IMG/VR virus record: IMGVR_UViG_3300020180_000109
Coordinates: 1-27,026 of that record
From: a virus
Strand: one strand, 5' to 3'
DNA length: 27,026 nucleotides
Part shown: in pieces, positions 3,237-19,261 of the stretch
How positions within the stretch are numbered: the stretch's first letter is position 1
Layout: the number at the start of each line of letters is the position of its first letter
Notes under the pieces: generated by a model
What the model was told of the DNA's origin: nothing
What the model saw: the letters and a program-made list of their open reading frames with translations, nothing else
The model's database searches: none
Translations under genes and position numbers: made by a program

Positions 3237-6200
3237 ATGGCTTGGGACGCAGGAAAAAATCGTATAAAGAAATGGGAAGATACAAATGAAAAGTTATCGC
3301 AACTAGAAGGAGAGTTAACTGATCAGGAGGCTATGGAGACTTTCGCCGAATACTTGTTTGCCAATCCAAGTATTTGTTTGGAATTATTGGCAAATTTAAA
3401 AATTTACCCCCTTCAAGAGCTAATGATAAAGGGATGGATGAGAAATGATTATTCGATGGCAATTTGGGGCCGAGGCATGAGTAAATGCATAGACATTAAT
3501 AGCTCAGTATTAACGAACAAGGGAATTATTCCAATAAAAAATGTGGAAGTTGGCGATAATATTTATGCCGAAAAGGGCGTTCAAAAAGTATTAAATAAAT
3601 GGTTTAATCCAGAAGAAGACGGATTTAAAGTTACGACAAAAAAAGGCTATAGTTTTATCGCAAAGAAGGGTCATAAATTTAAAATTTACGATCCAGAAAC
3701 ATTTGAAACCAAGTTTATAAATATAGAAGATACTCGTTTAGAGAATCTTATTCCAATAAAAGTCGGTCCTAATTACTGGGGAAATCAAAGTTTAGATTTT
3801 GATAGTAAGGTGAAAGAAAAATTTTTAGTTAATATTGAAAACGATTTAGACTTTTATTATTATATTGGACGGCTCTTAGGAGACGATTGTACTACTCACA
3901 AAATTGGAATTACATCTCCTGATAAAGAAATGATTGATTTTTTAATAGATTATTACAAGAAGATAGCACCAGAAAATAATATTGAACAGTATAAAAAAGT
4001 TGATAATGAAACATCCGGCGCATGTATTTCTAACCAAAACCTAACATGTGTTTTAGAGTCTCTTGGCTTTGATTTATCATTACATTCGGTCTATAAAAAA
4101 ATTCCCTCTAAACTATTATCTGTTTCGGGTGATAAAATTGCTATGATTCTTCGGGGTCTTTTCGATACCGGCGGTTACGTTTCATTGATGGAGAAGGAGG
4201 AAAAGAAATCTATTAGTTGTCTAATCGGGTATAGTTCTTCTTCTAAAGAAATGGCTAAACAGGTTCATACATTGTTGCTGAATTTCGGTGTTGTCTCTTC
4301 ATTCGCTTTGCATTCGTCTGGAGAAAAAAATAAACTGGTAAATGGACAATTCTGCGAAACTCAAGACGATTATAAGGTGATTATTACTGGGAGTAAATAT
4401 ATAGAAAAATTCAATCAAATTATTGGGTTCGGATTAACCAGAAAACGAGAGAGAGTTGAAAAATATTTAGCTCTAAAGAATCCAAAGAGTCTTTATTTTG
4501 ATAATGTTATACCGAATCTCAGGAAAGCTTTGAAGAAAAAATTTACTCACTGTGGATTTAAAAAAGAAGAGTTTGAGCTACACGATTCAATGAATCTAGA
4601 AAAACTTAAGGAGATTTTTCCATTAATCCCAGAAGGTAAAGAAAAAAATAGCCTTAAAGAGCTAATAGATAGCGATTTTTATATCGATAAAATTGAATCT
4701 ATAATACCGTGGAAAACTCAAACTTGTGATATAACAGTAGACAAAGAAGAGTGTTATTGGTCAGATGGAGCTATTCATCATAATAGCTTCACGGCAGCAG
4801 TTTTCTGTCTTTTTTGGTCAGTCTTCAACCCCGATAATCGTATCATTCTAATTTCGTTCGTCTTTCGTGCGACCAGAAGAATTCTTGAACAAATCGAAAA
4901 GTTTGTAAACGCAGATGGGGCTCATAATATTAAAAGTTGTTTTCCTAGCGATTTGCAAAAGAGAAACGATGAATGGAAATGGGCATTGCCAAATGGGGCT
5001 TCTATTGTTTGTTTACCTTTGGGCGATGGAACAAAGATTCGTGGTTTCCGTGCAGATACTCTCATTATCGATGAGTATAATTACATGAATTCTAATGTTA
5101 TTACAGAAGTAATTCAACCATTCCTCGTCTCCTCAAATAATGTTTCCTCACAAATGGAAATTGATCGTATCGAAGACAAACTAGTGGCACAGGGAAAAAT
5201 AAGAAATGACCAGAGAACAACTTTAGATGAAAATATTAAAGTTATCGCCTTAAGTTCGGCTGGTTTCCAGTTCGAAGACATGTACAAAAAGTATTCTTAT
5301 TGGGTGTCCAATATTATGGAAGGAGGTATTACAAAGAGAGACAGTGGCGAAGAGGAGGTGAGGCTTGGTGTTGGTGAAAATATTTCCTATTTTGTTTCAA
5401 GACTCAGTTATGAAGCCGCTCCCAAGGGATTGTTAAATGCAAAAGTTATTGAAGAGGCACGACAAGGCGCTAGTCAAAGCGTTTTCGATAGAGAATATAG
5501 GGCAATTTTCACAGCAGACTCGGACTCTTACTATTCTGCTAAAAAAATGGTAGAATGCACAATCCCAAATGGCCAATCGCCATGTATGGAAATAGAGGGC
5601 GATAATGGATCGGAATATATTCTTTCAATCGATCCATCTTTCTCTTCGGCAGAGCACTCTGACTATTTTGCAATGGTTATTTTAAAAATCGTCAAGAAAG
5701 ACGGGAAGAAAATTCCCCTTCTTGTGCATTGTTACGCAGTTGCGGGCGGAAGTCTTAAAGATCATACTCTTTATTTATATTTTTTACTTAAAAAATTTAA
5801 TGTAGTTTATGTAGCTATTGACTCTTCTGGTGGAGATAGTAATGAATTTATTAATTCTTCAAATAATTCTAAACTATTTAAAGATAGTAAAATAGAATTA
5901 TTGGACATACAAGCGGATTTTGCTAAACATGATAATTCTGATCTTATAAAAGAAATTAAAAAAAGTTATAACTTGCAGCAAAAAAGAATTGTACAAAAAC
6001 AACATTTCGGCGCTGGTAATTTTTTAAGATCCGCAAATGAATATATGCAAGGTTGCTTTGATAGAAAGAATTTAATGTTTGCTGGTAAGATTAATAGTAA
6101 TGCCAACGAACTTTCCAGAATATCGGGTACCAGTATGGATATACTAAAAGATCATAAATCCTTTAAAGATATTGATATCGAGGAATTTATCGAAGACCAA

Positions 6201-6440
6201 GATAATTGGATAGATGTCACAAAACAAGAATGCGCACTTATAGAAATTAGCACAAGCGCACTTGGAACAATGTCGTTTGATTTACCATTGTCTTTGCGAA
6301 GAAGTAAACAGGCGAATAGAGTGCGTAAGGACTTGTACTCAGCGTTGTTACTGGGAAATTGGGCGTTCAAACTATATATTGAATGTTTGAATGAGCCCGA
6401 GGTAAAGACTTTTGCGACTTTTGCTCCGTTTTTGGGATAA
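3237..6440 (+). CDS. terL: Terminase large subunit, interrupted by an intein
   Basis: This is the packaging motor: an ATPase that pumps DNA through the portal and a nuclease that cuts it. The open reading frame is 1067 codons; removing the intein (residues 84-516) gives 634 residues, normal for a T4 gp17-type terminase. The Walker A motif is split: GRGMSK (78-83) lies before the intein and S517 after it, giving GRGMSKS when joined. Walker B is TLIIDEYN (D612, E613). The RuvC-like nuclease acids are visible at D799 (LSIDPSF), D862 (VAIDSSGG) and D1032 (RKDLYSALL). Without protein splicing the ATP-binding loop would be broken, so packaging depends on splicing. The last 67 bp of the region around 6338-6404 recur downstream at 6664-6730 (see repeat entries). 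Confidence 0.95.
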   Translation: MAWDAGKNRIKKWEDTNEKLSQLEGELTDQEAMETFAEYLFANPSICLELLANLKIYPLQELMIKGWMRNDYSMAIWGRGMSKCIDINSSVLTNKGIIPIKNVEVGDNIYAEKGVQKVLNKWFNPEEDGFKVTTKKGYSFIAKKGHKFKIYDPETFETKFINIEDTRLENLIPIKVGPNYWGNQSLDFDSKVKEKFLVNIENDLDFYYYIGRLLGDDCTTHKIGITSPDKEMIDFLIDYYKKIAPENNIEQYKKVDNETSGACISNQNLTCVLESLGFDLSLHSVYKKIPSKLLSVSGDKIAMILRGLFDTGGYVSLMEKEEKKSISCLIGYSSSSKEMAKQVHTLLLNFGVVSSFALHSSGEKNKLVNGQFCETQDDYKVIITGSKYIEKFNQIIGFGLTRKRERVEKYLALKNPKSLYFDNVIPNLRKALKKKFTHCGFKKEEFELHDSMNLEKLKEIFPLIPEGKEKNSLKELIDSDFYIDKIESIIPWKTQTCDITVDKEECYWSDGAIHHNSFTAAVFCLFWSVFNPDNRIILISFVFRATRRILEQIEKFVNADGAHNIKSCFPSDLQKRNDEWKWALPNGASIVCLPLGDGTKIRGFRADTLIIDEYNYMNSNVITEVIQPFLVSSNNVSSQMEIDRIEDKLVAQGKIRNDQRTTLDENIKVIALSSAGFQFEDMYKKYSYWVSNIMEGGITKRDSGEEEVRLGVGENISYFVSRLSYEAAPKGLLNAKVIEEARQGASQSVFDREYRAIFTADSDSYYSAKKMVECTIPNGQSPCMEIEGDNGSEYILSIDPSFSSAEHSDYFAMVILKIVKKDGKKIPLLVHCYAVAGGSLKDHTLYLYFLLKKFNVVYVAIDSSGGDSNEFINSSNNSKLFKDSKIELLDIQADFAKHDNSDLIKEIKKSYNLQQKRIVQKQHFGAGNFLRSANEYMQGCFDRKNLMFAGKINSNANELSRISGTSMDILKDHKSFKDIDIEEFIEDQDNWIDVTKQECALIEISTSALGTMSFDLPLSLRRSKQANRVRKDLYSALLLGNWAFKLYIECLNEPEVKTFATFAPFLG
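3486..4784 (+). mobile_element. Intein with LAGLIDADG endonuclease, in Walker A of TerL
   Basis: The 433-residue insert covers TerL residues 84-516. It begins with Cys84 (CIDINSSVLTNKGIIPIKNV, splicing block A), has a block B-like 'FIAKKGHKFKIYD' with the expected His, and ends 'CDIT...GAIHHN' (block F/G, penultimate His and terminal Asn) before Ser517, the +1 nucleophile. All residues needed for splicing are present. The central part is a LAGLIDADG homing endonuclease: motif 1 is YIGRLLGDD with the catalytic D216, but motif 2 is LRGLFDTGG, where glycine 312 replaces the expected catalytic aspartate. That suggests impaired or lost cleavage with splicing kept. Insertion between the Walker A Lys and Ser is a typical site, since loss of the intein must be exact there. 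Confidence 0.93.
6338..6404 (+). repeat. Direct repeat A, copy 1 (inside terL 3' end)
   Basis: These 67 bp of the terminase 3' coding region recur at 6664-6730 with a single difference (G6354 versus A6680). In this copy they are read as terminase codons close to the C terminus; in the second copy they are partly read in another frame by the small 6520 reading frame. The copy marks one edge of a tandem duplication spanning the terminase-portal junction. Confidence 0.95.
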
Positions 6441-6483
6441 TTGTACAATATTTTAACATTTAACTACTTTTGGGTGTAAATTA

Positions 6484-6663
6484 GATAGTATATAAAGTTA
6501 ACAATTAAGACATTAAGCTATGATAAAACATAAATATGAAAAGAAAAATCTAGACTACTGGAAAAGAGTAGTGGCAGAAGAAGCGGTAGCTAAAGAAGTC
6601 GTACAAGCTATTATCTTGACGCAAAAAGCATACGCGGGCGTGGCTGTTGTCCGTAACACTATC
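6484..6663 (+). repeat. Direct repeat B, copy 1 (degraded portal 5' region)
   Basis: This segment matches 6731-7117, the portal leader and first ~117 codons, but with two gaps: 9 bp (an aataacgtt equivalent just after the codons for NLDYW) and 198 bp equivalent to 6863-7060. Both are multiples of three, so the frame is kept. A few substitutions also separate the copies (for example I2 versus T2, H4 versus R4, A versus V in the RVV-EE segment, and Thr versus Ala before QKAYAG). The base changes speak against an assembly error. Confidence 0.92.
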
Positions 6664-6708
6664 CTCAGCGTTGTTACTGAGAAATTGGGCGTTCAAACTA
6701 TATATTGA
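6520..6708 (+). pseudogene. Truncated duplicate of the portal N terminus
   Basis: The 62-codon frame reads as the portal N terminus joined to a later piece: residues 1-29 match portal residues 1-32 with a 3-residue gap, then AIILTQKAYAGVAVVRNTI matches portal residues 99-117, then 14 residues come from the duplicated terminase 3' end read in a different frame. It ends within repeat A copy 2. It keeps the same leader as the portal, including the TATATAAAG box and the spacing to the ATG, so it may be transcribed and translated. The most likely explanation is a decaying tandem duplication. A small peptide acting on portal assembly is a possible but unsupported alternative. Confidence 0.8.
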
Positions 6709-6730
6709 ATGTTTGAATGAGCCCGAGGTA
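6664..6730 (+). repeat. Direct repeat A, copy 2 (terL fragment before portal)
   Basis: A 67-bp copy of terminase positions 6338-6404, 66 of 67 bases identical. It runs directly into the portal leader at 6731, lacking the 79 bp (6405-6483) that separate the original from the first leader. It therefore sits as a scar between the broken portal copy and the real portal gene. Confidence 0.95.
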
Positions 6731-6766
6731 GATAGTATATAAAGTTAACAATTAAGACATTGAGCT

Positions 6767-8737
6767 ATGACAAAACGTAAATATGAAAAGAAAAATCTAG
6801 ACTACTGGAATAACGTTAAAAGAGTAGTGGTAGAAGAAGCGGTAGCTAAAGAAGTCGTACAAAGGCAATTGATGCCCACTCTAGATTATAAATTCGACGA
6901 CAACGAGCATTTTACGGCTGTCGCAGCATGTGGCGGCGGCGCTTCTCGTTCATATAGAGACGGTGGATCGCCGGAAGTGTCACCTATAGATGCTTATGCT
7001 AATATCGATTCTCAAATTTTACCTTGGGAAACTTCTAACGGTAGAATTAGTATTTCTAGAGCTATTATCTTGGCGCAAAAAGCATACGCGGGCGTGGCTG
7101 TTGTCCGTAACACTATCGAATCCCAAGTTGAATTCAGTAATAGTAGGATTCATTTGAAGGGTTCGAATACAACTGCGAACGATTTTTATAAGGCGTGGTT
7201 CGACGTTATAGGACTATTTAAAGTCAAAGAGCAATTCTTTAGAGAGCGTTATTGTTCAGGTAACTGGTTTGTTTATAAAATGATGGGGAGAATTCCCGAC
7301 TCCCAAATGGCAAAAGTAAAAGGAATTGGGGTGAAGGGGAATCTTATTCCAATTAGATATTATACTTTAAATCCTTCTCAAGTTTATTTACAAAATGGTT
7401 TAGGTTATTCTCCGGGGCAATGGGTAAAGATCATGAGTTCTTATGAAATTGATCGACTAAGATTTCCCCAAACAGACGAAGACAGACAGGTTTTTAATTC
7501 CCTACCTCCAGAAACGAAAGATTTAATTAAAAGAGGCGGGGGTTTGGGAGAGTTATACATTCCATTAGACCCGAAACGTTTACGATATGTATTTTACAAA
7601 AAACAAGATTACCAACCGATGGCTATTCCGATGGTTTATCCTGTATTAAACGATATCGAATGGAAGTTGGAATTAAAGAAAATGGATATGTCGTTGTCTC
7701 GTACAATTGAACAGGTGATTCTCTTAATTACAACTGGTGAAAAAACTGATCAATACGGCGGCGGCATCAATCCCGAAAATTTAGCGAATCTTAGAACAAT
7801 TTTTAACAGCCAAACGTTGGGAAGGGTATTAGTCGCCGACTATACAACTAAGGCTGAATGGAAGATTCCCGACATCGGCGCTATTCTAGGACCAGAAAAG
7901 TATAAACAGGTAGAGCAAGATATTAAAGAGGGCCTTCAATCGATTATGATGGGAGACGATAAATTCGCAAATGCTCAAATTAAAGCGAAGGTCTTTATCG
8001 AAAGAATGAAAGAGGGCCAAGAGGCTTTTTTAAACGAATTCCTTATTCCCGAGATGCGGATTATCGCCGAACAAATGAACTTTAAGAGCATTCCAGAGGT
8101 AGAATTTGAAGAGATTGATATCACAGATCCGAGCGTCATGGCGAGAATCTTCTTACGCATGGCCGAAGTCGGTTTATTAACTCCTGATGAACTGAATACG
8201 GCGTTAACAAGTGGTGTTTTACCAGAATCTGAGACTTCCAAGCACTCTCAAACGGAATACAAAAAAGAGAGAGATAAGGGATTGTATGCGCCTCTAATCG
8301 GTGGTGCTAAAGATCCCGCTGCCGGTGCAAACGGGAGGCCGCAAGGCACTAAAGCGCCCCAATCTACAAAAAAGATGACGCCGCAAGGCACTAAAGGCTC
8401 TGATGTTGAAGAGGAAAATAGATATAGTCAGGCGAAATTTATTGAATTAGTCCCTATTGCCAACTCTCTTAAAAAATTAGTAAAAGCTGAATTGTGTAAA
8501 AAATACAAGCTTGACCAAAATACGTTAAATCATGAGCAAGAAGAGTTAGTGGAAACATTGACCAAATGTATCGTCGTCAATGAAAGTCCTGACGATTGGA
8601 CGTCTAAAACCGCGAAGATGTATATTAAGGAACCAAAGATAATTAGCGATGATATCGGTAATGTTATCGATGATATTGCGGTGTCCCACGATTTATCGGG
8701 TTGGAATGCCTCTCTGGCATACAAATGTATAGTATAA
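6767..8737 (+). CDS. Portal protein
   Basis: The 656-residue protein sits between the large terminase and the prohead protease, the normal portal position. Its length and features fit the family: a helical N terminus, a clip/wing region with 'IPIRYYTLNPSQVYLQNG' and 'YIPLDPKRLRYVFYKKQDYQPMAIPMVYPVL', a stem with 'MDMSLSRTIEQVILLITTGEK', and a crown with 'FIERMKEGQEAFLNEFLIPEMR' (residues given by motif only). Portal dodecamers form the DNA entry channel and the platform for the terminase. The C-terminal tail from about residue 520 is a Pro/Thr/Lys linker that includes a 16-bp direct repeat (8339-8354 and 8381-8396, coding PQGTK) and then a ~130-residue acidic helical extension of unknown role. 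The first 32 residues and the leader are duplicated just upstream. No Shine-Dalgarno sequence precedes the ATG. Confidence 0.85.
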   Translation: MTKRKYEKKNLDYWNNVKRVVVEEAVAKEVVQRQLMPTLDYKFDDNEHFTAVAACGGGASRSYRDGGSPEVSPIDAYANIDSQILPWETSNGRISISRAIILAQKAYAGVAVVRNTIESQVEFSNSRIHLKGSNTTANDFYKAWFDVIGLFKVKEQFFRERYCSGNWFVYKMMGRIPDSQMAKVKGIGVKGNLIPIRYYTLNPSQVYLQNGLGYSPGQWVKIMSSYEIDRLRFPQTDEDRQVFNSLPPETKDLIKRGGGLGELYIPLDPKRLRYVFYKKQDYQPMAIPMVYPVLNDIEWKLELKKMDMSLSRTIEQVILLITTGEKTDQYGGGINPENLANLRTIFNSQTLGRVLVADYTTKAEWKIPDIGAILGPEKYKQVEQDIKEGLQSIMMGDDKFANAQIKAKVFIERMKEGQEAFLNEFLIPEMRIIAEQMNFKSIPEVEFEEIDITDPSVMARIFLRMAEVGLLTPDELNTALTSGVLPESETSKHSQTEYKKERDKGLYAPLIGGAKDPAAGANGRPQGTKAPQSTKKMTPQGTKGSDVEEENRYSQAKFIELVPIANSLKKLVKAELCKKYKLDQNTLNHEQEELVETLTKCIVVNESPDDWTSKTAKMYIKEPKIISDDIGNVIDDIAVSHDLSGWNASLAYKCIV

Positions 8738-11221: not shown

Positions 11222-12373
11222 ATGTCTAAATATCAGATCAATATCGAACAAGACGCAGATCTTTCAAAGCTAATCAAAGGTCTTGGCTCCAGAAATAGAG
11301 CTGAGTTCGATGCAGCGATGGAAGCTGTTGCGGCTTATATCGGTGAAGTTATTCTACAGGTTGTAGAACAATCTCCGGTTATCTCCAACCTTTACACGAC
11401 CGTTACCTACAATGAAGGTTCCGCTCCCTCACTACCCCTCGATGTATACTATGACATCAAGGATAAGAACTACCTCCAAGTTTGGACTCAGTCCATGCCC
11501 GGTGGTTTAGCCACTAACTTCGTTCACGGTTTGAACGAACTAATGGTTGCATGTTACGACATCATGAGCGCGGTTTCTATGCACAAGCGCTATGCTCGCG
11601 AAGCACGTCTCGACGTTCTTGCCGCGACCATGGAACGTATGGCACAGGAAATCCTAGTTGTACAGGAAACGAATGGTGCTAATATCCTATTCGCAGCTGT
11701 TGCTCAAGCTCGTTATAATGCAGTCGGCGGTGCTTCAACCCCACAGGTTATTCGTTCGGCTGTCGCTAACATTTTCCAGATGGACGATTTCAATCGTATC
11801 ATCACTCTCCTACAGAGAATCCGCCCATCATGGGTCGGTGGAACGCCTGTTGGTGGTAACACAATCTCACACCTCATTGGTTCACCTGAGTTCCATGAGC
11901 AGCTAAGATCAATCGCTTATCAACCTCAGAATACCCGCGCTGGTTCTTTGGCCACTAACGGTGCAACCGCTCTAGCGGCCCCTGATGCTGTTCGTGATAA
12001 TATCTTCACTACCGCTGGTAATCCTAATTTCTTCGGCGTTGAATTGGTCAACGTCTTCGAAATGGGTGTTGCTCAACCATACAATCAGTTGTTTGCTGAT
12101 TACATCGGTGCTACAACCTTCCAAGGCTACGGTGGCGGCTCTAATGCTGTTTTCTCTCCTACAACCGAAGAAGTTGTGCTAGCTCTATCTCTCAACTCGA
12201 ACCGCAGAGCGCTAACCCGCCTTGTCGAACGTGGTGCGGAAAATGGCGCGACCTTAACTGTTCGCCCTGATGACTCATTCCCAATGAGAGCCGATAAGGT
12301 CGGTTTCTATGGTTCTCTTCGTGAAGGGCGCGTCAGTCTTGACAGCCGCCATTTGGCTGCAATTGTATTCTAG
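11222..12373 (+). CDS. Major capsid protein
   Basis: The 383-residue protein follows the protease-scaffold and decoration genes and is closed by a strong intrinsic terminator, as expected for the most expressed structural gene. The N-terminal ~45 residues are helical and charged and could be the delta region removed at maturation. The rest alternates helices (LAATMERMAQEILVVQETNG) and loops with 'RPSWVGGTPVGGNTISHLIG' and 'TLTVRPDDSFPMRADKVGFY', typical of an HK97-fold capsid. Codon use is strongly biased to C-ending and preferred codons. No clear Shine-Dalgarno sequence is seen, but an A-rich leader with TATAAAAC (11192-11199) precedes it. The call rests on position, size, composition and codon bias, not on a diagnostic motif. 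Confidence 0.82.
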   Translation: MSKYQINIEQDADLSKLIKGLGSRNRAEFDAAMEAVAAYIGEVILQVVEQSPVISNLYTTVTYNEGSAPSLPLDVYYDIKDKNYLQVWTQSMPGGLATNFVHGLNELMVACYDIMSAVSMHKRYAREARLDVLAATMERMAQEILVVQETNGANILFAAVAQARYNAVGGASTPQVIRSAVANIFQMDDFNRIITLLQRIRPSWVGGTPVGGNTISHLIGSPEFHEQLRSIAYQPQNTRAGSLATNGATALAAPDAVRDNIFTTAGNPNFFGVELVNVFEMGVAQPYNQLFADYIGATTFQGYGGGSNAVFSPTTEEVVLALSLNSNRRALTRLVERGAENGATLTVRPDDSFPMRADKVGFYGSLREGRVSLDSRHLAAIVF

Positions 12374-12491: not shown

Positions 12492-13349
12492 ATGGCTGGA
12501 ATAATTTGGGAAGATTGCGAAGATATTAAATTAATAGAGTTAGTTTCTTTAGGGAAATATACATTTCAAGAAATGACAGCTTGGATGTCAAATAGAACAG
12601 CAAGTGCTTTACAATCAAGATCCTCTATTTTGGGGCTTCAAAATAACTATCAATGGCATCAATATGAATTTGATAAAAATTTCTTCGAGACGCCGAATAA
12701 TAGAAATTGTTTTTGGGCTGGATGGTTGGCCGCAGACGGCAACTTCGAAAATTATTGCGGGGAAAGATATGCTCTAAGATGGTCTATACACCAACAAGAT
12801 ATCGAAATGATGGAGTTATTTAAATCGGACATAAAGTTTACTGGGCCAATAACTAAGTTCACGAAAAAATTAAAAACGGGGGTGTTATCGCCACATGCGG
12901 TTATTCGGATTAATCAGGTGGATATTCAAAAATACCATTTGTATAAATGGGGAATGATCCCAAATAAGACTTACCGATTACCTCCCTCAATTTTAGAAAC
13001 ATTGGAACTAAAACTGGCTTTTATCGTCGGCTATATTAATGGGGATGGCTGTATAAATTATTACAAAAGTAAAAAGGGGAAAGAAAACTTTTGTATTAAA
13101 TTTACTAATTCGTCGTTGCAAATTCTTCAGTGGATTAAACAGATTGCGGAAGATTTCAACTTTCCGAAACTTAAAAATAAAAAGAAGCCAATTCGAAAGA
13201 TCGGCAAAACAAATTGCTATGAAGTAGTCTTTAATGGTTTGGAAGCCGCTTCCCTATTCAAACTCTTAAAAACTGTACATGTACCAAGTCTGGCGCGAAA
13301 ATGGGAAAACCCTGAAATCTTAGAATATATCGAAAGAATTTTAAAATAA
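12492..13349 (+). CDS. Free-standing LAGLIDADG homing endonuclease
   Basis: The 285-residue protein has two LAGLIDADG motifs: FWAGWLAADG (catalytic D82) and FIVGYINGDG (catalytic D185), with intact acidic residues, so it is probably an active monomeric site-specific DNA endonuclease. The N-terminal ~45 residues (WEDCEDIKLIELV...MSNRTASALQSR) resemble a SANT/Myb-like helix-turn-helix, a common DNA-binding add-on. It is not inside another gene: it lies between the capsid terminator and a small unknown gene, the usual spot for a selfish free-standing endonuclease that spreads by cutting phages without it. Its A-rich codon use differs from the capsid gene before it. An out-of-frame ATG lies 4 bp before the chosen start. 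Confidence 0.87.
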   Translation: MAGIIWEDCEDIKLIELVSLGKYTFQEMTAWMSNRTASALQSRSSILGLQNNYQWHQYEFDKNFFETPNNRNCFWAGWLAADGNFENYCGERYALRWSIHQQDIEMMELFKSDIKFTGPITKFTKKLKTGVLSPHAVIRINQVDIQKYHLYKWGMIPNKTYRLPPSILETLELKLAFIVGYINGDGCINYYKSKKGKENFCIKFTNSSLQILQWIKQIAEDFNFPKLKNKKKPIRKIGKTNCYEVVFNGLEAASLFKLLKTVHVPSLARKWENPEILEYIERILK

Positions 13350-15668: not shown

Positions 15669-17555
15669 ATGGCGGATCTTCCTTTCAATCCTTTCTATAA
15701 CGGGTATACGACAAGACAAAATATCTTAGCGTATGTCGATGGCCCCGATAATGTAGGGCAAGTTTTAACTTCTGGACAATTTTACTCTGGCCGTTGGGGA
15801 GGTTGGTATAGTATCGCGTCTCAATCATTTAAATATGCCAAAGCGTCGAACAACAGTTTTAATCTTACGGTAAATAGCGACGGAACCAATTTTGGAAATC
15901 TAATACCGCCAGCGACATCGAACATTCTTCGTATATCAAATGTCGGAATGGCATTTGATGAAAACGCGAATCCTGTGATGTCATTTCAAGATAACGGAGA
16001 TTCTAATGTGGGATTTTTTAACCCGCCTTTGGTTACGGTTGCTACAACCGGATTAAGTCTCCAGTTTTCGGGAAAAAATGCCGTCTTGTTTGCAACGGTT
16101 CAAACGAACTATCCTTATGGAATTCCAAATTTTCTATATAAAAGATATCAGACAGGCGACGTAGCTTGTTATTACAGTATTGAAAATGATAAAATTTATT
16201 CTAGATATAAAAGTGAAAATTTCGCCATTCAGCGCTTAATGTCTTCTGGCGTTCCCAATAGCGGAATGGCATTTGCAAATATTAATGTCTATCCATTTAT
16301 CGATAGAACGAGTCAAGAATATCCGCCGTTTCGAAAAGTATACTCGTCGATTTCCGCCGATGGAAGAACTTTAAGACTAATACAGGGCGCTCCAACAATC
16401 AATTTTGCCGCTGATACATTCCAAAATTATCTTAGTGGAGAAGCGCCAGCGGTTTTGGTTTCGGGCTATGGAAGATGGATCGTTTCGACTTTATTGGGTG
16501 CCACAGTTGGGAGACAATTCACCGCGCAGCCTCGGGTGCAAGACGATTTTGAAGCGTATTCGTCCGGAGAAATAGCTAATTTAATCAGCGGATATCTCGT
16601 TTACCCTCAGATTACAGTTCCGACAACCGGGAGGGTATACGTGCAAGGCTTACTCATTGAACCCTATACTGGTTATGCAACGGGGTATGATACTACTTTC
16701 GATAAAGGTTTTATAAATTTTAAAACGATTGTCGTCGCCACATCGGGGAGGTCTTATGACCCCGATTTATATTTCTTTGAGGGGTATGAAAATTATGCGT
16801 CGGGTTTAAGAAATACATTTCTTAGCTTCATCACTGGAAAACAATATAATGGTGTAAATGGAAGCGACGGGAGATCTTTTGCGGGATGGTCCCCATTGCA
16901 ATTTTTAGGTATTCTTAGCGGGCTACAAAATCTGGGACTTGGACCCGCGCCTTTTACCGGAAGCGGGAGATTGAACATAGGAAATAACGATTTGATAACG
17001 AGAAATTATGTAGGATATCCCTATAAGGGAACCGGTATTTTCTTCAACAACAATGTATTTTCTTGGCAAAGACCTTTGGACCCCATTACCGATTTTACAG
17101 TTGAAATTGCCGCTTGGCCTAGTGGTTGGGCGACTTCAGATGCGAAAATTATTGAGGCAAATCCTGTCGCTGGTTTTTCCTTGGGGAGATATTCCACAAC
17201 CAATAATGTCGCGTTTATACTAAATAATGTAACTCACACGGGCACATTTTCACTAGGTTTAAATGATTGGAATTTCTTATCGTTCTCTAGGAGTGGCGGC
17301 GTTGGTTCTCTCTATTGGAGCGGTAATCTTATGAATACTTTTCCAGTCAGCACGGGCGCTATTACGGGCGGCGTTACGGTTAGTTTCGGTAAAAACTTTA
17401 CCTCAAACAGTCAAAGATTTCTTGGATACCTCGACGAATTTAGATTCTGGGATACGGTCCGAACCACCGGAGAGATTTATCGAGATTGGAATATTTTAAT
17501 AAATCCACAACCTGATTTGATAGGCTATTTCTCGTTAAGAGACTACTCGTCTTGA
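15669..17555 (+). CDS. LamG-domain tail protein, likely receptor-binding
   Basis: The 628-residue protein is beta-rich. The C-terminal ~170 residues (about 455-625) form a LamG/concanavalin-like domain: 'DFTVEIAAWPSGW', 'SDAKIIEANPVAGFSLGRY', 'DWNFLSFSRSG', 'GSLYWSGN', then YLDEFRFWDTVRTTGEIYRD and a C-terminal strand LIGYFSL. It shares this domain with the minus-strand gene ending at 19273. Residues about 300-390 contain F-x-x-Y-x-SG segments (DDFEAYSSG, YENYASGLR) that recur in the partner protein too. Such domains bind sugars at the host surface. The stop codon TGA (17553-17555) lies at the edge of the omega-RNA-like segment, so the last residues may have been replaced when that segment arrived. 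Confidence 0.75.
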   Translation: MADLPFNPFYNGYTTRQNILAYVDGPDNVGQVLTSGQFYSGRWGGWYSIASQSFKYAKASNNSFNLTVNSDGTNFGNLIPPATSNILRISNVGMAFDENANPVMSFQDNGDSNVGFFNPPLVTVATTGLSLQFSGKNAVLFATVQTNYPYGIPNFLYKRYQTGDVACYYSIENDKIYSRYKSENFAIQRLMSSGVPNSGMAFANINVYPFIDRTSQEYPPFRKVYSSISADGRTLRLIQGAPTINFAADTFQNYLSGEAPAVLVSGYGRWIVSTLLGATVGRQFTAQPRVQDDFEAYSSGEIANLISGYLVYPQITVPTTGRVYVQGLLIEPYTGYATGYDTTFDKGFINFKTIVVATSGRSYDPDLYFFEGYENYASGLRNTFLSFITGKQYNGVNGSDGRSFAGWSPLQFLGILSGLQNLGLGPAPFTGSGRLNIGNNDLITRNYVGYPYKGTGIFFNNNVFSWQRPLDPITDFTVEIAAWPSGWATSDAKIIEANPVAGFSLGRYSTTNNVAFILNNVTHTGTFSLGLNDWNFLSFSRSGGVGSLYWSGNLMNTFPVSTGAITGGVTVSFGKNFTSNSQRFLGYLDEFRFWDTVRTTGEIYRDWNILINPQPDLIGYFSLRDYSS

Positions 17556-17623
17556 ACCTCCCCCGGCTAAAGCCGAGGGATTCTGAATCAGTGAATTGTT
17601 CTGCGGATGCAGAGCAATGCTCA
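17553..17623 (-). ncRNA. Omega-RNA-like / IS200-IS605 right-end hairpins
   Basis: Read on the minus strand, the segment begins at the stop codon of the 18469 gene, shows a GAGC-ATT-GCTC hairpin (17622-17612), an overlapping TCTGC-ATCC-GCAGA hairpin (17613-17600), then AGAACAATTC, then AGAATCCC leading into a strong 10-bp hairpin (17581-17560, loop of two), then GGGGGAGGTTCAA. This order (short hairpin, GAACAA, spacer, GAATCCC hairpin, GGGGAG-N-TTCAA) is the layout of IS200/IS605 right ends and the omega RNA scaffold of TnpB. The main stem pairs fully as minus-strand RNA (one G-U) but has a C-A mismatch as plus-strand RNA, and it has no T-run, so it is not a normal intrinsic terminator. No tnpB, tnpA or left end is in the window. 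Confidence 0.6.
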
Positions 17624-18469
17624 CGCGTATCGTTCGACAATGAGCGAACTGATTCGAAGCTTACAAGTAAAAAACGGAGAGTAAATAATTACACCCTTGG
17701 GTTTCTGTAAAGGAATTCCGCCCGCAGTAAAATCGTGGGTATACGGAGTTCCAGAGCTAATCCAAGTGTTATTTGGGTAGGCCGTGCCGCCAGCCATTTG
17801 GCGAGTCGCCAAAACATTTGGATCTGAAGTCTGGGTGATTCCTGCCGGGGTCGAATCCATAAAGGCGAAATTGATTCTGTTTGTGGAGGGATTGTATTTC
17901 ATTCCAACCCCGTTTAAATTAGTAAAGCCCGTATTGTTTTGAGGCAAATAACTGTTACCGCCCGGCCTACCGGGGAATGTGGGGGCCGCACCCACGGTAT
18001 TGGATCTAAAGACTCCGGTAAAATTTCCAGAAGTGCTAACGGCACCAACAAAGAATTCGTAGTGAATAGCGCCGTCTTCTAGTAAATAGCCAGCTTGAGT
18101 AGCCCTTACTTGAAAAGTAGAGGGAGATTGGTATGGATCAGTTGTTAGGCCGACAAAGGTTGTTCCGTTACTCGATCCATTGGCATTTGGAACGCCATAA
18201 AATTCTCGAATATTCCCCGTCCAACCAATAAACCCCATCCAATAGTTGTTAGAAGGGTTGCCAGCAGCCAAGTTCTCAACGAAGGAATTGGCAAGAAATT
18301 CATTATTACCCGTGACACTAACAATAGACAAAGCCATCCCCATGCGGATTTCCGTCCAATCATCGCCAAAATCGAAAGGATAGATAAGTGCCTCGCGAGG
18401 CTCTAAAATAAGCATTGTGTCGATCAGAGCGCCCGTTTGACCAAACTTTTTTTCGAAAATTATCGCCAT
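17621..18469 (-). CDS. Unknown protein, paralogue A of a tandem pair
   Basis: The 282-residue protein is beta-rich and aromatic, with no signal peptide or membrane helix. It shares a frame of motifs with its upstream neighbour (18503-19261): MA-I-F start, 'LEPREAL-Y-FDFGD' near residues 22-37, 'E-RMG' and the terminal 'SLIVERY'. The middle regions have diverged. The family is unknown to me. It is last in the minus-strand tail block, next to tail tip and LamG genes, so a tail fibre, tip or adhesion-associated role is likely by position. A promoter candidate lies 14 bp before the start, so it may be transcribed separately. Its last codons overlap the start of the omega-RNA-like segment. Confidence 0.65.
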   Translation of the reverse strand: MAIIFEKKFGQTGALIDTMLILEPREALIYPFDFGDDWTEIRMGMALSIVSVTGNNEFLANSFVENLAAGNPSNNYWMGFIGWTGNIREFYGVPNANGSSNGTTFVGLTTDPYQSPSTFQVRATQAGYLLEDGAIHYEFFVGAVSTSGNFTGVFRSNTVGAAPTFPGRPGGNSYLPQNNTGFTNLNGVGMKYNPSTNRINFAFMDSTPAGITQTSDPNVLATRQMAGGTAYPNNTWISSGTPYTHDFTAGGIPLQKPKGVIIYSPFFTCKLRISSLIVERYA

Positions 18470-18502: not shown

Positions 18503-19261
18503 TTATTGATATCTTTCTACTACCAAAGAATGAATTCTTGACCTACTAGAAAAATAAGGCGAATAAATAAACGCCGAATTAAGCTCGTTCGGGAAGTATC
18601 CAGTCATTGGTTGGCCTTGTATAAAGGAGGTGTTTAAAGAAGTGCTGATCAAACGTCTGCAACTAAAAACGCTATAGTCTGTTGTAAGTTCATCTGGACT
18701 AGAGTTTTGAGTGGTCGATAACCATCCGGTTCCGCTATAATTACTACCCCTTCTGAGGGTAATGCAATTAAATTTGGCATAAAGTCCGGCACTCGCCGCC
18801 GATGTAATCATGGTTCGGGGACCGTTTGCGTTAGTTACTCCATTGTATACGGTTCTTCCGCTGTAAGCGATTCCGTTATTGGCCACCCCACTGACAACCG
18901 CTAATCGGGCCGTTCCATTAAAATTGAAATAGTCAATATTTCCTTGGATACTATGTAGTAATCCCGGAATAGTTGTACACCCCGCGAAAACAACTCCAGT
19001 TTCTCCATTATATGGCAGTCTAAAAGAAGAATCTTTGAACCCAATAAAAAGCTGCCCTTGTGGGGAATTGTCTGTAATCGAATCATTAAATGCTCCGGGA
19101 TAATTTTGATTATCATTTCCGTTTTGTGTTTGACTGACAAAAAAGCCCATACGAAGCTCTCTCCAATCACCGAAGTCGAAAGTATATAAAAGAGCTTCTC
19201 TCGGTTCTAATATAACGCATTTTTCACCTGATGCGACTGATTTTAAGAATATCGTTGCCAT
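18503..19261 (-). CDS. Unknown protein, paralogue B of a tandem pair
   Basis: The 252-residue protein shares 'ILEPREALLYTFDFGDWREL' (about residues 16-35), an 'RMGFFVS' segment and a C-terminal 'SLVVERYQ' with the following gene. The intervening region is Asn/Gly/Ser-rich and beta-like, with 'GQLFIGFKDSSFRLPYNGETG'-type strands (given by motif). No known domain is recognised. Spacing to the LamG gene is 11 bp, so the two probably share a transcript. It starts MATIFLK, which parallels MAIIFEK of paralogue A. The pair probably arose by gene duplication, then diverged, as happens with surface-exposed tail proteins. Confidence 0.65.
   Translation of the reverse strand: MATIFLKSVASGEKCVILEPREALLYTFDFGDWRELRMGFFVSQTQNGNDNQNYPGAFNDSITDNSPQGQLFIGFKDSSFRLPYNGETGVVFAGCTTIPGLLHSIQGNIDYFNFNGTARLAVVSGVANNGIAYSGRTVYNGVTNANGPRTMITSAASAGLYAKFNCITLRRGSNYSGTGWLSTTQNSSPDELTTDYSVFSCRRLISTSLNTSFIQGQPMTGYFPNELNSAFIYSPYFSSRSRIHSLVVERYQ

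Follow-up and report, generated by a model that had tools for sequence, protein, structure and literature searches.

TnpB is usually studied together with a guide RNA encoded at its own 3′ end, and the concept of solitary guide RNAs serving OMEGA nucleases is not new. Non-autonomous IS200/IS605 derivatives of the PATE or MITE type keep both ends and are multicopy. The ISDra2 RNA is described with stems 1-4, a UUUA tetraloop and a pseudoknot pairing the terminal U-U-C with G-A-A near -104 (PMC10097598). A guide RNA can be cut from a longer mRNA by TnpB (PMC10278001), and a frameshifted tldR locus may still supply guide RNAs in trans (PMC13418256). The titles and abstract openings that made up our literature survey mention neither solitary TnpB guide RNAs nor tnpB right ends fused behind phage genes.

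Here, we analysed a 27,026-nucleotide stretch of viral DNA (IMG/VR record IMGVR_UViG_3300020180_000109), called the window, which is 99.96% identical to part of a longer contig, G001 (145,870 bases), and likewise to G002 (48,080 bases) over the overlap. At the junction of two convergent genes, the first-pass annotation had read an IS200/IS605 right end on the minus strand. Our analysis gives good support to the conclusion that this junction holds the truncated 3′ end of an IS200/IS605-type tnpB element, with the following features (R1 is the covariance model presented below):

15669..17555, plus strand: gene with a LamG domain (PF13385), convergent.
17527..17551, minus strand: presumed guide position, by analogy with TnpB elements; bases past TTCAA, antisense to the 3′ end of the LamG gene.
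17552..17583, minus strand: hairpin of the IS200/IS605 right end, comprising stem 4 with a UUUA loop, and the terminal GGTTCAA, from sequence, fold and covariance model match.
17552..17663, minus strand: full extent of the match to the omega-RNA model R1 (40.3 bits, E 8.2e-7), with low posterior upstream of 17583.
17553..17555, plus strand: stop codon of the LamG gene within the right-end sequence (TGA in the window, TAA in G001).
17585..17655, minus strand: perfect 8-bp inverted repeat (17585-17592 and 17648-17655) closing a predicted multibranch fold.
17595..17621, minus strand: remnant of the tnpB C-terminus, S I A L H P Q N N, with the ALHPQN codons at 17598-17615; the TnpB of locus L078 ends KAFALHPQNK.
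17619..17645, minus strand: predicted hairpin over the last codons of the tail-region gene, with a GAAC loop at 17632-17635.
17621..18469, minus strand: tail-region gene, named by its position, whose stop codon adjoins the tnpB remnant.

The LamG and tail-region genes are separated by 65 bases, and this gap is filled by the right-end fragment, which runs in sense with the tail-region gene that precedes it on the minus strand. Positions 17583-17552 of that strand read GAATCCCTCGGCTTTAGCCGGGGGAGGTTCAA: nine base pairs form a stem capped by a UUUA loop, and GGTTCAA comes next. The conserved GAAUCCC...GGGAG of the terminal hairpin is found in this sequence. The GUUCA-type terminal motif is GGUUCAA in the window and GGUUUAA in G001, and it could engage in pseudoknot pairing. 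As for the LamG stop codon, which had been placed at the edge of the scaffold, the TGA lies inside the right-end sequence. The tail-region gene, without any match in Pfam or PHROG, stops 5 bases ahead of the ALHPQN codons. Its C-terminus, SLIVERYA, is native, as it resembles the SLVVERYQ of its paralogue (18503-19261).

The ISDra2 omega-RNA shares with the window a UUUA-loop terminal stem, a GUUCA-type 3′ end and, over the about nine codons that remain here, an overlap with the last tnpB codons (PMC10097598). Unlike in ISDra2, stem 1 with its pseudoknot loop and stem 2 were not recovered in canonical form in the window, which has no tnpB and no visible left end. Indeed, inspection of the locus by eye revealed no IS200/IS605 left end, and a domain search of the window record (0 of 1 record) confirmed that there is no tnpB nearby. 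The junction does not hold an autonomous IS200/IS605 element, with no tnpB in the window and no tnpA in G001 or G002; both contigs cover the locus, and among the six records searched a tnpA domain was found in one, the contig G011. Like PATE or MITE-type elements, the window has an end without tnpB, but it holds one copy and no left end was seen; the fragment being single-copy in G001, an element of this type is also ruled out at the junction. The multicopy type is rather suggested by G006, where three 272-base right-end copies (L108, L109 and L110), 98.5-99.3% alike and without adjoining tnpB, stand in different contexts with different sequences following, in a MITE-like manner, while the single G006 TnpB has its own right end.

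The right-end scaffold had been read at the junction, and a covariance-model search proposed as a check. With Rfam 15, no match was obtained at the junction up to E 5, and four weak matches were found elsewhere in the window; a nucleotide search of phage records with the junction returned 10 records, of which 8 matched across the right-end hairpin, with a best E of 0.3. We built R1 from an alignment, A1, of 12 right ends that includes neither the window nor L075. Of the 30 right-end rows at hand, twelve were left out for an unclear correspondence to the same stem 1 arrangement (L039, L044, L047, L049, L057, L058, L061, L063, L064, L066, L068 and L074), five as near-duplicate or short (L040, L041, L046, L052 and L056), and L075 was kept for testing, while L106 stands for L073; this choice of 12 rows out of 30 makes the A1 consensus look cleaner than the full set. 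The consensus consists of stems 1, 2 and 4, and in 11 of its 20 pairs both sides are changed in at least one sequence. In a TnpB omega-RNA, stem 1 is expected to carry a GGAAC-type loop that pairs with the terminal motif, and stem 2, of the CCUG/CAGG type, to adjoin the terminal hairpin. R1, whose short calibration makes its E-values rough, was run over 251,594 bases (window, G001, G002, G003 and L074). It matched the junction at 8.2e-7 in the window and in G002 and at 4.5e-6 in G001, the L075 copy in G003 at 4.1e-9, and L074 at 1.1e-8; the next match below these stood at 0.063. A structure-aware model built without the window hence bears out the minus-strand right end where Rfam did not detect it. 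As the right ends in R1 had been picked by a hairpin-containing pattern, the match mostly confirms the hairpin. Moreover, only stem 4 fits the window fully; since stems 1 and 2 fit poorly and with low posterior (non-standard pairs at 2 of 6 and 1 of 5 positions, respectively), the match rests mostly on the terminal part. The predicted window fold forms neither canonical stem, and the GAA loop that R1 assigns to stem 1 in the window does not coincide with the GAAC loop. From this modelling, canonical stems 1 and 2 do not seem convincingly present.

The codons just before the hairpin, S-I-ALHPQN-N, were not part of the first-pass annotation: the junction piece retains about nine codons from the end of a lost tnpB, oriented like the tail-region gene, and part of this remnant is predicted to fold as a hairpin. 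In L078, where TnpB is intact, the protein terminates in NAAINIKAFALHPQNK and a right end of the window's type comes next. Both loci have in common the ALHPQN C-terminus and the right end GAATCCC...CTTTAG...GGGAG.TTCAA, but only L078 has a full tnpB, and only there does an RNA core separate its last codons from the terminal hairpin. When the viral collection was scanned for ALHPQN-type codons, 17 stretches were found, five of them followed by a right end (L001, L019, L075, L076 and L078); in the other 12, none was seen within 130 bases downstream. Two right-end patterns, run over the same collection, returned 19 and 9 stretches, two of them common to both, which makes 26 distinct ones. In 17 of these, tnpB lies directly upstream, or the RuvC-III end does where the stretch begins there (L023). 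In five others, the right end stands alone at the stop codon of a gene (L001 and L019 from the window phage, L075, L076 and L073); three have no tnpB beside the right end (L025 and L030, on one contig, and L074) and one, L018, is cut by the contig end. That the hairpin arose by chance or convergence, unrelated to IS200/IS605, would fit with its short length and with the lack of an Rfam match at the site, but the R1 E-value of 8.2e-7, the adjoining tnpB codons and the same fusion in L075 make this highly improbable.

Pairing had also been described as complete only on the minus strand. This holds for the terminal stem, whose U-G pair becomes a C-A mismatch on the plus strand. It does not hold for the 128 bases from 17553 to 17680, which fold at -44.6 kcal/mol (z -4.17) as minus-strand RNA and at -45.0 (z -4.53) as plus-strand RNA, none of 200 shuffles folding as well on either strand; because the two strands are about equal, the asymmetry supports the terminal hairpin only. 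The strong fold on both strands, in a fragment that fills the gap between convergent genes, could point to a co-opted roadblock or terminator, in which the hairpins would stop or stabilise both converging transcripts without any guide role. However, we found no intrinsic terminator-like site (hairpin and T-run) between 17300 and 18700, for a shuffle mean of 1.6; this speaks against an intrinsic terminator at the junction. Furthermore, the comparable fragments of L075 and G011 stand between genes running the same way, and we consider such a roadblock very unlikely.

We also examined the hairpin predicted over the last codons of the tail-region gene. Its GAAC loop occupies positions -84 to -81 relative to the 3′ end, which are also those seen in L072 and L073, and could pair with the right-end GUUC. 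Several relatives have such loop-to-end pairs, with GGAAC, GGGAC or GGAAG facing GGUUC or GCUUC, and L075 retains stem 1 (CGGCA GGAAG UGCCG), joined directly to stem 4. In a synonymous-codon test on 2000 variants, 1.45% (own-gene usage) or 1.1% (four-gene usage) folded as well, compared with 1.25% in an earlier version of the test, and none of the 2000 in either usage set combined such a fold with a GAAC apical loop. The GAAC letters themselves were found in 41% of the variants, because Glu-Arg favours them, and formed an apical loop in 0.5% and 1.45%. With 500 variants at each of 19 further gene ends in the window, the corresponding proportions ranged from 3.8% to 99%, the junction ranking first of 20 and no better. 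The test is post hoc, as the fold was already known when it was run, and so was the loop when GAAC loops were counted; it is modest and suggestive evidence that selection may have acted on this predicted hairpin in the codons of the tail-region gene.

A TnpB encoded elsewhere in the phage had been envisaged, and there is one indeed: a TnpB domain was found once in each of the two near-identical longer contigs. In G001, it is located at 57 kb, about 39 kb from the junction. The tnpB with a matching right end that had been sought is a different matter, since the right end of the phage tnpB terminates in GUUGAC facing a GUCAAC loop, while the junction has GUUCAA. With both its right end and its C-terminus being different, the phage TnpB, encoded at L005:1390-2580, was rejected as parent of the fragment. 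It could nonetheless be the partner of a working trans-acting guide RNA, where the 3′ end of the tail-region mRNA would be processed by TnpB, either the phage's own or the host's, and the 16-20 bases antisense to the LamG gene end would serve as guide. Such an RNA would direct cleavage of co-infecting or related phage DNA without the insert and favour its own allele like a homing endonuclease. Consistent with this, the phage TnpB retains the RuvC motifs GIDLG, LEDL and DADVN, scores 142.1 bits against guided_TnpB (cut-off 100), and the GAAC loop is at the position seen in L072 and L073. The excision of guides from longer mRNAs by TnpB (PMC10278001) and the homing-type elements of the neighbourhood (the LAGLIDADG domain of the terminase gene and a free-standing LAGLIDADG gene) also go in this direction. 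On the other hand, stems 1 and 2 are not convincingly present and the phage TnpB is associated with another terminal motif. Moreover, of the 10 differences that separate G001 from the window, one turns TTCAA into TTTAA, so that the terminal motif is changed in one of three near-identical phages. Finally, the sole perfect match of the presumed guide in G001 is its own flank; the second-best site has 2 mismatches in 16, with about 0.08 expected by chance according to our estimate, which we take to be within chance.

Other features were noticed in the same phage genome. A second right-end-like hairpin lies between tRNA-Glu and tRNA-Gln (L013:15109-15186, plus strand; G001 115,109-115,186), with weak R1 matches (E 0.063 and 0.035). 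A UUUA-loop hairpin upstream of the phage tnpB (L005:2660-2700, minus strand, the same in L004) is perhaps a left end; the G001/G002 alignment stops near it and the upstream genes differ. In the window, the structural cluster is rich in homing-type elements, with an intein-like LAGLIDADG domain in the terminase gene (3237-6440) and the free LAGLIDADG gene at 12492-13349. Direct repeats of 58-134 bases, 90-98% identical, surround the start of the 6767-8737 gene (6338-7117) and look like a partial duplication of that start.

Solitary right ends were found in other phages. In L075 and L076, the tnpB codons INIKAFALHPQNK and a right end immediately follow the stop codon of a gene that has no match in Pfam, and no TnpB was found in either contig, both of which may be fragments. 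In G011 (166,613 bases), a 146-base solitary copy and the 3′ end of a full tnpB element on the same contig share 98.6% identity; the copy extends into the final codons of a gene whose match to an HD domain is weak and below the cut-off, and a different sequence follows. These loci and the window have in common a tnpB 3′ end in sense at a phage gene stop codon. Unlike the window, L075 retains stem 1 with a GGAAG loop, and in G011 the RNA is whole, a complete tnpB element being present at another place in the contig. As the G011 copies (L072 and L106) and L078 belong to R1, its matches to them are not independent. Solitary RNA units without adjoining tnpB are found in L074 (E 1.1e-8, no TnpB in its 28,869-base contig), in Enterocloster phage CB457P1 (E 1.9e-12, TnpB elsewhere in the record), in Enterococcus phage EF1 (L138:1798-1946, E 4.1e-5, no TnpB match in this partial genome record) and in Nodularia phage 2AV2 (E 0.00025, five TnpB matches elsewhere). 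The EF1 RNA is 92.6% identical to phage EFP01 over 149 bases, the identity starting at the 5′ edge of the RNA; of 11 differences, 8 are unpaired and 3 fall in pairs that stay paired, too few to decide on covariation. In EFP01 and in Paenibacillus phage Unity, a transposase gene lies directly ahead of the RNA. A group I intron was suspected by eye around the L138 and L140 copies, and Rfam detected none at E 0.01.

The fuller among the solitary units argue for a guide RNA acting in trans, as does the sense orientation of the fragment with the preceding gene in all three cases (window phage, L075/L076 and G011); in L075 and G011, the fragment begins only about 40 and 54 bases, respectively, ahead of stem 1. 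Weighing this against the poorly fitting stems, the different terminal motif of the phage TnpB and the base change in G001, we regard a working trans-acting guide at the junction as possible, if unlikely. The reading that we favour, and consider probable, is that of a truncated element now persisting as a partly decayed relic. An IS200/IS605-type tnpB element would once have stood between the tail-region gene (minus strand) and the LamG gene (plus strand); insertion followed by deletion would have removed its left end and nearly all of tnpB, leaving about 70 bases that run from the last tnpB codons through the terminal hairpin to TTCAA, the right boundary. By read-through transcription, this remnant would now form the 3′ untranslated end of the tail-region gene transcript, and it also supplies the LamG stop codon. 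At present, it is most likely a partly decayed guide-RNA end that would have lost its function, with residual activity at most. Stems 1 and 2, backed by covariation in the relatives, fit the window poorly, which argues for decay, and the change from TTCAA to TTTAA in one of three near-identical phages points the same way. Against a relic stand the substitute hairpin, whose GAAC occupies the place expected of the pseudoknot loop, and the unusually good fold that the last codons of the tail-region gene form together with the remnant. Regarding the inserted element proposed at first, the truncated tnpB 3′ end (ALHPQN codons, L078) supports its former presence, while the insertion and the deletion are our reconstruction. 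Searches for relatives with an empty site through the tail-region gene, the 11222-12373 gene (taken as the capsid gene by its position) and the L075 gene found only the known near-identical contigs, so that insertion boundaries are not visible at the junction; the 11222-12373 protein itself had no match among 50,697 phage records.

Retention of the fragment may have been selected, since other phages keep fuller solitary copies; the window copy itself is one of the weaker in the set. In a broader and unlikely scenario, phages would domesticate tnpB right ends as stand-alone guide RNAs attached to phage genes at their 3′ ends, for use by a TnpB whose gene lies elsewhere; the lost parts of the window scaffold would have been rebuilt from the last codons of the tail-region gene, and the guide at the LamG gene end would mark rival phages without the insert for cleavage. 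The related loci show that phages can carry guide-RNA ends without an adjoining nuclease gene, as illustrated by the 98.6% identity in G011 and by the 92.6% identity from the RNA 5′ edge in EF1. If such RNAs work in trans, one TnpB could be directed to several targets, and this could serve homing or phage-phage exclusion. The cultured phages EF1 and CB457P1 and, more weakly, 2AV2 would make the idea of guides acting in trans testable.
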